A DNA stretch of 64,000 bases, taken from contig JANXYJ010000124.1 in NCBI GenBank assembly GCA_025350105.1, positions 1 through 64,000 on the forward strand, written 5' to 3'. The position numbers and the translations under genes were made by a program. This document shows, one piece after another, positions 45,457 through 47,183 of this stretch. The first letter of the stretch is position 1. The number at the start of each line of letters is the position of its first letter. The notes beneath the pieces were generated by a model that was not told the DNA's origin, made no database searches, and saw only the letters and a list, made by a program, of their open reading frames with translations. This DNA comes from Terriglobia bacterium. Its GTDB lineage: Bacteria; Acidobacteriota; Terriglobia; Bryobacterales; Bryobacteraceae.

Positions 45457-45921
45457 ATGGGCGCGTTCGAATTATCCATTACGGTTACCGGTTCAGACAT
45501 CGATCAACTGGGTCACCTCAACAACGTGGCCTATTTGCGCTGGGTGCAGGAAGCCGCGAAGGCGCATTGGATGGCCGCTGCCTCTGCGGACGAACAGGCG
45601 AAGTTGTTGTGGGTGGTGCTGCGCCACGAGATTGACTATCTGAAACCCGCGTTTCTTTCCGATCAGGTGATCGCGCGCACCTGGGTGGGCCAAGCCACGC
45701 GGCTGCGGTTTGAACGCTTCACGGAAATTCTGCGCGCCGGCGATCAGAGCCCTCAGCAGAATACGGATCAGACGGTTTTCGCCAGGGCCAAGACCATCTG
45801 GTGCCCCATCGATGCACACCGCAAACGGCCGGTGGCGGTAAGCGAGGAAGTGCGCGGGCTTTTTAGCGTAACTGGCGAACAAGTAACTGGCGAACAAGCT
45901 TCGCGGCTTGCGGACCTATGA
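45457..45921 (+). CDS. Acyl-CoA thioesterase, 4HBT hotdog family
   Basis: A 154-residue hotdog-fold enzyme: DIDQLGHLNNVAYLRWVQEA is the 4-hydroxybenzoyl-CoA thioesterase-type active-site helix, followed by HEIDYLKPAFLSDQV. The C-terminus carries an exact 15-bp duplication producing VTGEQVTGEQ. The promoter-like -10 of the next transcript starts at the base after its stop codon. Confidence 0.85.
   Translation: MGAFELSITVTGSDIDQLGHLNNVAYLRWVQEAAKAHWMAAASADEQAKLLWVVLRHEIDYLKPAFLSDQVIARTWVGQATRLRFERFTEILRAGDQSPQQNTDQTVFARAKTIWCPIDAHRKRPVAVSEEVRGLFSVTGEQVTGEQASRLADL
45868..45897. repeat. 15-bp tandem duplication at the thioesterase C-terminus
   Basis: GTAACTGGCGAACAA occurs twice exactly (45868-45882, 45883-45897), encoding VTGEQ twice in the last 15 residues of the thioesterase. 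The frame is kept. Confidence 0.93.
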
Positions 45922-45927
45922 TACAAT
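45922..45927 (+). promoter_or_regulatory. Candidate -10 element of the DAHP synthase leader transcript
   Basis: TACAAT, five of six matches to TATAAT, directly follows the thioesterase stop codon. Transcription would start about seven to nine bases later, at 45934-45936, that is at or just before the ATG of the leader peptide, giving a nearly leaderless transcript. No good -35 hexamer is seen at 16-18 bp upstream, so the strength is uncertain. Confidence 0.45.
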
Positions 45928-45935
45928 TCTGGTAG

Positions 45936-45995
45936 ATGTTGTTTGCGACCACCAGCTCGTTTCGATTTACTTACTGGCGCTACTTTAGCGTCTGA
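45936..45995 (+). CDS. Aromatic-rich attenuator leader peptide
   Basis: A 19-codon open frame encoding MLFATTSSFRFTYWRYFSV. Seven residues are aromatic (Phe3, Phe9, Phe11, Tyr13, Trp14, Tyr16, Phe17), six of them in nine consecutive codons. The stop TGA is at 45993-45995, eight bases before an RNA arm that can pair with the terminator. No Shine-Dalgarno is present, but the predicted transcript would start at its ATG. Position, composition and downstream hairpins are those of a transcription-attenuation leader, here for DAHP synthase at 46143. Confidence 0.75.
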   Translation: MLFATTSSFRFTYWRYFSV

Positions 45996-46002
45996 ATCGT
46001 CA

Positions 46003-46061
46003 CGAGTGGGGTAGCTGCATCGCAAGTTTGAACCAAACCCACTCGAAAGAGTGGGTTTTTT
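46003..46061 (+). promoter_or_regulatory. Attenuator: competing antiterminator and terminator hairpins
   Basis: Arm 2, CGAGTGGG (46003-46010), is exactly complementary to arm 3, CCCACTCG (46038-46045). Arm 3 also pairs with arm 4 in the terminator AAACCCACTC-GAAA-GAGTGGGTTT (46035-46058), followed by a T run to 46061. Arm 1 in the leader frame, CCAGCTCG (45952-45959), can pair with arm 2 with one bulged G. A ribosome stalled on the Phe/Tyr/Trp codons would cover arm 1, free arm 2 and prevent termination; a ribosome at the stop codon would block arm 2 and allow termination. Confidence 0.7.
46035..46061 (+). terminator. Rho-independent terminator in the DAHP synthase leader
   Basis: A perfect 10-bp stem (AAACCCACTC / GAGTGGGTTT) with a GAAA loop, followed by a run of six T (46056-46061). 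It lies 82 bases before the DAHP synthase start and after the leader peptide, so it would end the transcript before the gene is reached. Confidence 0.88.
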
Positions 46062-46142
46062 GTTTATGTACGTTGTTTGTATATGAATCTGAATTTCAAA
46101 AGGCGCTATTGGCGCCGTTCACAGGAATAAGGAGATACCCAC

Positions 46143-47183
46143 GTGATCATTTCCATGAGGCTGCATGCAACCAAAGACGAGATTACCCGAGTCCGCGAAC
46201 GCATTGAGGAGTTTGGCTATAAGGTCCATTCCATCGCTGGCGAGGAGCGGGTAGTGATTGGCGCGGTGGGAGCGGGTGATGTGACGGCGTGCCTGGAGTC
46301 GCTTTCTGGCATGCCGGGAGTGGAGCGAGCCATGCGTATTTCGGCGCCCTATAAGTTCGTGAGCAAAGAGTTCAAGCCGGAAAAAACCCAAATCAAAGTT
46401 CGTGACGTCGTGATTGGCGGCGACGAATTCGTCATGATGGCGGGGCCATGCTCAGTGGAAAGCGAAAAGCAGATCATGGAGTCCGCCGAACTGGTGGCCA
46501 AGCACGGCGCAAAGATTCTGCGCGGCGGGGCGTTCAAGCCGCGGACTTCGCCCTACGATTTTCAGGGCATGGAAGAAGAAGGCCTGAAGCTGCTGGATAA
46601 AGCCCGGCGCGCCACCGGCCTGGCCATCGTCACCGAGGTGATGAGCGACCGCGAGGTGGGCATGGTGGCCAAATACGCCGATATTTTGCAGATTGGTGCC
46701 CGCAACATGCAGAACTTTTCGCTGCTGAAAACCCTGGGCAAATGCGGCCGCCCGATTTTGCTGAAGCGCGGTTTGAGCGGGACCATCAAAGAACTGCTGA
46801 TGTCGGCCGAATACATTGTGGCGCACGGCAATCCGGATGTGATGTTGTGCGAACGGGGCATTCGCACCTTTGAAACAGCCACGCGGAACACCTGCGACAT
46901 TGTGGCCGTGGCGGTGTTGAACGAACTCACTCACCTGCCGGTGATTCTGGATCCCAGCCACGCCACTGGCAAGCGTAGCCTGGTGCCACCGCTGGCGCGG
47001 GCTGGGGTGGCCATTGGCGCGGATGGCATGATCGTGGAAGTGCATCCCAATCCCGAAAAAGCGGTCAGCGACGGCGCACAGTCCCTGGATCCCAAACAGT
47101 GGGCAGCCATGATGAAGGACCTGAAACCCTACATCGAACTGTGGAAACAGGCGCGAATGTCCCAGACCGCGGCTGTGGTTTAA
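46143..47183 (+). CDS. aroF: 3-deoxy-7-phosphoheptulonate (DAHP) synthase, type I-beta
   Basis: A 346-residue enzyme that condenses phosphoenolpyruvate with erythrose 4-phosphate, the first shikimate-pathway step. Residues 1-70 are a ferredoxin-like regulatory domain ([22 protein letters not shown]), as in Thermotoga-type enzymes where it mediates feedback inhibition by aromatic amino acids. The catalytic barrel has [40 protein letters not shown] and [10 protein letters not shown]. Start is GTG 46143 with AAGGAG upstream. The gene follows the aromatic leader peptide and attenuator. Confidence 0.96.

Follow-up and report, generated by a model that had tools for sequence, protein, structure and literature searches.

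A predicted phenylalanine, tyrosine and tryptophan attenuator ahead of DAHP synthase, conserved across much of an acidobacterial order

The DAHP synthase gene of a soil-type acidobacterium, a Terriglobia bacterium (assembly GCA_025350105.1, contig JANXYJ010000124.1) is very probably governed by a classical ribosome-mediated transcription attenuator, whose leader peptide would act as a sensor of three amino acids, i.e., phenylalanine, tyrosine and tryptophan. The gene lies in a stretch of 64,000 nucleotides, positions 1 to 64,000 of the contig, which is called the window here. The parts follow one another in the order thioesterase-like frame, promoter element, leader, arm 2, terminator and DAHP synthase, and among them are a short frame rich in codons for the pathway's products, an intrinsic terminator before the gene, and a conserved antiterminator that is mutually exclusive with that terminator. 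The features, with their coordinates in the window, are as follows.

45457..45921, + strand: upstream acyl-CoA thioesterase-like frame (weak match, below the cut-off; listed for context only)
45919..45927, + strand: extended -10 element TGA-TACAAT, in which TACAAT occupies 45922-45927 and TGA supplies the TGn directly 5' of it; relatives also have a -10 before the leader ATG
45936..45995, + strand: leader peptide frame, ATG to TGA, MLFATTSSFRFTYWRYFSV, read from the sequence and conserved in 113 leader rows (110 distinct)
45948..45960, + strand: arm 1 (protector), codons just 5' of the sensor core, pairing with arm 2 by folding
45960..45986, + strand: sensor core codons F-R-F-T-Y-W-R-Y-F, the first R being the rare codon CGA (45963-45965)
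46003..46011, + strand: arm 2 (5' arm of the antiterminator), CGAGTGGGG, a copy of the terminator's 3' arm, identified by folding and conservation
46035..46044, + strand: arm 3, AAACCCACTC, common to antiterminator and terminator
46049..46061, + strand: arm 4 and U tract, completing the intrinsic terminator
46035..46061, + strand: whole terminator, AAACCCACTC-GAAA-GAGTGGGTTT plus TTT
46129..46134, + strand: Shine-Dalgarno-like AAGGAG of DAHP synthase, read from the sequence
46143..47183, + strand: DAHP synthase, the regulated gene, 346 aa with a GTG start (NF006421, 489.9 bits; TIGR01361, 400 bits; both above cut-off)

A sequence-only reading of the window had already proposed attenuation here, and most of what it described stands. 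Re-reading the sequence returned the same leader frame at 45936-45995, with 19 codons, seven of them aromatic, and a TGA stop at 45993-45995; the candidate -10 at 45922-45927 is indeed TACAAT, separated from the leader ATG (45936) by eight bases. The arm at 46003-46010, which had been put forward as able to form an antiterminator, pairs with 46038-46045 (-15.7 kcal/mol, z -2.14) and is kept in relatives, and the terminator at 46035-46061 folds with 10 pairs (-16.2 kcal/mol, z -4.85). Its spacing from DAHP synthase needed a small correction, as 81 bases lie between the terminator's end and the GTG at 46143, and the figure of 82 given earlier counts to the start codon. Two elements were added in the present analysis: arm 1, which lies within the leader and pairs with arm 2 at -28.9 kcal/mol (z -4.05 in the window), and the TGn 5' of the -10, supplied by the TGA stop (45919-45921) of the thioesterase-like frame, which adjoins the hexamer and ends that frame 14 nt 5' of the leader ATG. 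All three helices, 1:2, 2:3 and 3:4, fold in the window, and their four arms are laid out as in a classical attenuator. Conservation of the short frame and of arms 2 and 3 in relatives, one of three points on which the earlier reading had let its proposal depend, supports attenuation as well; on a second, the position of the transcription start, the -35 signal described below bears indirectly.

From these parts we infer how translation, stalling and the response would proceed. RNA polymerase would start at the leader ATG or 1-2 nt 5' of it, and a ribosome would load on the 5'-terminal AUG. If charged tRNA-Phe, tRNA-Tyr or tRNA-Trp ran short, the ribosome would stall in FRFTYWRYF and cover arm 1 (45948-45960), so that arm 2 (46003-46011), now free, could pair with arm 3, block the terminator and let DAHP synthase be transcribed. 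With all three plentiful, the ribosome would reach the TGA (45993-45995) and shield arm 2, or would depart and let 1:2 form; in either case 3:4 could form and transcription would terminate. As a stall on any one of the three amino acids would be enough, the switch would behave as an OR gate, which fits a single DAHP synthase that feeds all three.

Conservation was assessed from a first set of 50 DAHP-synthase upstream regions, the window's included, of which 40 had a candidate for both leader and terminator and 34 (all but L029, L041, L042, L043, L044 and L050) were aligned and turned into a covariance model, R1. At E <= 1e-4, R1 matches 170 of 250 genomes of the order, in 59 of its 84 genera, and 80 genomes have no match. 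Among 80 named DAHP-synthase loci it finds 66, including one that a contig end truncates, and misses 14; the labels of the named loci include Bryobacterales, Bryobacteraceae, Terriglobia, Candidatus Solibacter, Candidatus Sulfopaludibacter and Acidobacteria. The window's own genome has one site, accompanied by a match on the antisense strand of the same terminator, and the R1 search found no second site there that could be a sister attenuator. Every one of the 25 distinct loci that were retrieved via R1 alone and checked precedes DAHP synthase. The 117 R1 matches were reduced to 113 leader rows by match identity, and three further duplicates leave 110 distinct leaders; counts given below over 112 or 113 include up to three duplicates. 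Outside the leader table are L267 and L092, which are cut by contig ends, L042, and matches that are antisense or cover the terminator only. DAHP synthase follows in 108 of the 113 rows, and the other five, which had been retrieved via the enzyme, have at most 133 nt of downstream DNA. Phylum-wide, at E <= 0.01, matches occur in 41 of 396 genomes, and those outside the order were left uncounted because most fit only the terminator end of the model. Two records titled Bordetella parapertussis or Betaproteobacteria (L070, CALQCC020000021.1; L107, CAJCHZ010000110.1) also carry this DAHP synthase with its leader, and their titles look like those of mislabelled metagenome bins.

The promoter signature recurs with the leader. 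With 110 of the 113 rows aligned on the -10 alone (three rows are absent), a TTG peak stands at -35 with a 17-nt spacer, a signal for which there had been no selection. The -10 ends 8 or 9 nt 5' of the ATG in 77 of these 110 rows, and in 61 of 105 when the start codon is picked neutrally, as set out below. At the usual distance from a -10 to its start point, transcription is predicted to begin at about 45934-45936, at the leader ATG or 1-2 nt before it. Because the -10 is so close to the ATG and the -35 signal is unselected, the leader is probably leaderless, and an RNA that starts on the ATG or a few bases 5' of it has no room for a Shine-Dalgarno sequence. This mode is plausible in Acidobacteria in view of an in silico survey, one part of which puts leaderless genes at an average of 13.3% in three acidobacterial genomes (PMC3160421). 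The TGn was rejected as a general promoter feature, being directly 5' of the -10 in just 33 of 107 leader rows.

Attenuation might also operate on a transcript that starts upstream, by readthrough from the thioesterase-like frame, with the leader translated by reinitiation and not leaderless. The upstream frame is on the same strand and stops as close as 14 nt to the leader ATG, at 45921, and the window's own -35 position (45899-45904, CTTCGC) is a poor match, both of which favour such a start; yet the -10 and its spacing from the ATG are kept in relatives and the -35 signal emerges over the whole set, while the sequence farther upstream differs by eye, and we regard an upstream start as unlikely.

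For the leader itself, the aromatic signal is confined to the frame. Residues of the 113 rows are aromatic at a mean fraction of 0.35 in frame, a value that drops to 0.095 and 0.071 when the other two frames are read, and in 108 rows the fraction lies above the 95th percentile for shuffles of that row; after the start, 16% of residues are Phe, 10% Tyr and 8% Trp, and all three occur in 102 of the 110 distinct leaders. The chosen start is ATG in all 113 rows, by a frame choice that rewarded ATG. The same score rewarded aromatics and a gap to the -10 near 8.5, and the ATG, aromatic and spacing statistics are thereby inflated, so that a neutral pick, i.e., whichever start codon comes first downstream of the best -10 hexamer, with none of the three rewards, serves as a milder check. 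It gave no start in eight of the 113 rows, and among the other 105 it returned the same start in 97, ATG in 99 and an aromatic fraction of 0.32. Codon usage in the leaders is also skewed, TTT making up 260 of 339 Phe codons as against 52 of 126 in eight genes of the window. Substitutions fall on the three codon positions 372, 308 and 410 times, a weak excess at the third, and the order of the aromatic residues varies between leaders. L014, a relative in the same genus, lacks the leader and the U tract together, which speaks for attenuation; L029 and L120 keep the terminator and have no convincing aromatic leader, which counts against it, as leader and terminator parts do not always co-occur.

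Within the core, the arginine of the R-F pair is encoded by CGA in 86 of 97 leaders, compared with 21 of the 163 other Arg codons of the same leaders; in the eight window genes CGA accounts for 10 of 206 Arg codons. A Watson-Crick partner downstream for the first five bases at the CGA is present in 22 of the 97 leaders against 3.4 expected, and a six-base test that admitted wobble gave a mean of 5.31, not clearly above the 5.14 of shuffles, so RNA pairing explains the conservation of the CGA in part at most. That CGA is a slow codon which keeps ribosome and polymerase in step is our guess. The R-F pair, kept in 97 of the 113 rows with flanks that are mostly aromatic, also brings to mind nascent-peptide arrest, for which TnaC is the model: the [FYW]-R-F-[WTS] core would bind a free aromatic amino acid in the ribosome and would not report tRNA charging. 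However, the arginine is kept at the level of its codon (the 86 of 97 above), which an arrest peptide has no need of, 16 rows lack R-F, and the aromatic order is not fixed, and arrest of this kind seems highly improbable to us.

The RNA arms needed for switching by a stalled ribosome are conserved to differing degrees. Across 112 leaders (L258 is absent from the folding sets and the arm alignment, as the terminator finder missed it), 3:4 pairs in 99-100%. Of the seven 2:3 columns, five are paired in 93-99% of leaders, whereas a further one reaches 77% (unpaired in 26 of the 112) and the last only 20% (unpaired in 90). Taken together, the seven columns of 2:3 pair in 644 of 780 cells (83%), a share that falls to 38-55% if the partner is shifted one or two columns along, and in four leaders (L031, L043, L260 and L270) U-A has become C-G on both sides of the helix. 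Pairing of 1:2 is patchy across leaders, though stable in the window. In a stall simulation, in which the ribosome footprint was kept unpaired and arm 4 was not yet made, mean sequestration of arm 3 was 0.80 for a ribosome stalled on aromatic codons and 0.75 for one on the other codons of the leader, compared with 0.63 on ribosome-free RNA and 0.39 for a ribosome at the stop codon; the aromatic stall exceeded the stop-codon state in 106 of 112 leaders but the ribosome-free state in only 84. Shuffling the spacer lowered sequestration from 0.84 to 0.54 (101 of 112 leaders). In this model there is good support for the contrast with the stop-codon state and for the role of arm 2, and the folding over the 112 leaders did not single out aromatic codons from other leader codons (0.80 and 0.75).

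Such strong RNA folding would also be expected of an untranslated regulator, e.g., a T-box, an aptamer or a protein-binding leader, in which the short frame would be incidental. When both the region and the entire window were scanned against Rfam, no family reached its gathering score, the best in the region being Leu_leader (RF00512) at 20.8 of 50 bits, with Trp_leader (RF00513) at 18.2 of 41; no T-box was among the region's matches up to E 5, or reached gathering in the window. This result and the confinement of the aromatic excess to one frame both argue against such a regulator, to which we allow a very slim chance.

Taken by itself, the window makes a moderate case against chance. The fold from leader to terminator has a z of -5.28, and 0.12% of base shuffles of the window's leader give an open frame that contains at least seven aromatic codons. 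There are three terminator-like sites in 2 kb on both strands, about the number expected by chance (a mean of 2.5 in shuffles), of which the one at 46035-46061 has the most pairs, 10 as against 6 and 5. Chance is set aside because of the conservation across relatives, and the notion of a mere terminator of the upstream gene beside a chance frame, for which that number of sites per 2 kb is what could be said, is contradicted by the frame, arm 2 and terminator conserved before DAHP synthase in the order and has virtually no likelihood left.

Other designs precede DAHP synthase elsewhere in the phylum. In three of four genomes of one family (f23; L218-L220) the leader is rich in Trp (ANWFWWPWHF or ANWFWWSWRF), the arms are different ones and the terminator is CCCACCC/GGGTGGG. 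In another (f34), eight of ten DAHP-synthase loci (L215, L328 and L330-L335) have, after a stretch rich in purines, a leader in which at least four codons are Tyr or Phe and none is Trp; a GGCCC-type hairpin comes next, with a U tract of varying quality. These leaders, which look independent, finish with Asp/Gly/Ser-Pro-stop, and in most of them a CCC-CTGA-GGG hairpin spans the stop codon. Of the remaining two loci, L336 has a leader that is weaker, with two Tyr counted by eye, and L329 has just 136 nt before a contig end. L124, labelled simply 'bacterium', combines an NFWYFYF leader and different arms with the same order of parts, and in a third family (f3) no leader was found at five loci of one genus.

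A palindrome, CACC-N-GGTG, was also noticed within 350 nt upstream at 22 of 79 loci, as against 27 of 800 windows of downstream DNA, the pattern having been picked after it was seen. Examples upstream of DAHP synthase are at -99 in L073, L075 and L077 and at -153 in L086 and L091, and it occurs at 17 of 65 loci with an attenuator and at 5 of 14 without one; it is a possible operator.

The number of DAHP synthases bears on why the sensor of the main type would read three amino acids. One such enzyme was found in the window's genome, which is rated 96.5% complete; its second PF00793 protein was rejected as a DAHP synthase, being KDO8P synthase, and the type II enzyme (PF01474) was found in none of 23 genomes, i.e., this one and 22 relatives. 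Where one enzyme alone opens the pathway, its control has to take account of all three products. Enzyme number and sensor do not correlate cleanly, since some relatives with the same mixed leader carry a further DAHP synthase (e.g., G007); those f34 and f23 genomes in which other sensor mixes were seen have two matches each at DAHP-synthase level. In one relative (L031, G022:C154) a second DAHP synthase copy, 81% identical, has its own leader and terminator. The widest reading of these data, which we offer tentatively and hold to be possible though not probable, has three strands: a leaderless three-input OR gate that reads the charging of tRNA-Phe, tRNA-Tyr and tRNA-Trp would act on the sole DAHP synthase; the same job would have been solved several times in Acidobacteriota with different sensor mixes (Phe/Tyr/Trp in this order, a Trp-rich one in one family, and in another a Shine-Dalgarno-led Tyr/Phe mix that lacks Trp), perhaps in step with the number of DAHP synthases per lineage; and the fixed rare CGA between aromatic codons would tune ribosome timing in the main type.

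Other aromatic genes were searched too. Upstream regions of 50 loci, trpE-type (L278-L307) and prephenate dehydratase (L308-L327), contained no aromatic-rich short frame with a terminator, a weak result in places, as the loci were oriented by their longest frame and some regions may not be truly upstream. The anthranilate synthase of the window's genome (L297, G000:C159) is a 735-codon TrpE-TrpG fusion (PRK13566, 988 bits; TIGR01815, 868 bits; above cut-off), and no attenuator was detected upstream of it. An R1-like attenuator whose leader, MDVQPAGANNYFWCWYRQGGWSAF, includes NNYFWCWYR was found before a TrpE gene of another genome (L134; G070:C1:1307375-1307530, minus strand; TIGR00564, 460 bits over a partial gene sequence, below the cut-off of 517.7), which suggests that the attenuator design occurs at other genes.

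The attenuators of the E. coli trp and pheA operons have the same four-arm switching logic as the one proposed here, their leaders trpL and pheL are Shine-Dalgarno-led, and the trpL of S. meliloti senses tryptophan only. As portrayed in part of PMC11802643, the E. coli leaders differ in answering to one amino acid each and in serving branch genes, not the entry to the pathway. In S. meliloti, according to portions of PMC7298713, the 5' end of the attenuator RNA is the ATG of the leader frame, a leaderless arrangement like that predicted here, and the attenuator sits before trpE(G), unlike the present one. The aroR-aroF attenuator of C. glutamicum (Neshat et al. 2014, as relayed in sections of PMC4046766 and PMC11802643) has a leader peptide with Phe-Tyr-Phe and works by ribosome stalling, and aroF is induced under Phe limitation, Tyr availability being without effect (PMC11802643, in the same sections). 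By this description it is alike in placing an aromatic-codon leader peptide, on which ribosomes stall, before a DAHP synthase gene, and it differs in its Phe-Tyr-Phe core, with no Trp named, in its phylum, and in regulating one of two DAHP synthases. The Acholeplasma aroF motif uORFC-13-1, as outlined in one portion of PMC8632094, has 24 representatives from Acholeplasma and environmental sequences and resembles the present case in that its uORF, which contains one or more Phe codons, comes with a possible promoter, a terminator and DAHP synthase, but it has an RBS and involves Phe only; the same portion mentions attenuation at E. coli aroF as once hypothesised, and no more. The earlier claim that the arrangement matched no described case therefore has to be narrowed, as DAHP-synthase leaders (C. 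glutamicum, Acholeplasma) and a leaderless leader (S. meliloti) have been described; the parts seen of the open-licence literature on DAHP-synthase and aromatic leader peptides and on acidobacterial attenuators held no Phe/Tyr/Trp triple sensor and no acidobacterial case, which is weak evidence of absence. Ribosome-mediated attenuation, DAHP-synthase leaders and a leaderless attenuator leader are known, and what appears to be new, judged from sequence, is the putative triple sensor, the breadth of its conservation within an acidobacterial order, and its differently composed counterparts elsewhere in the phylum.

In 2010, as stated in part of PMC2965389, almost no attenuator predicted in Acidobacteria had an associated function. 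For the conserved acidobacterial attenuator predicted here the target gene can be named, and this holds over much of an order; the case illustrates a way in which a single DAHP synthase in a genome could be tuned to each of its three end products. Its many natural variants, apparent losses included, offer material for tests of how codon choice and leaderless initiation act in attenuation.
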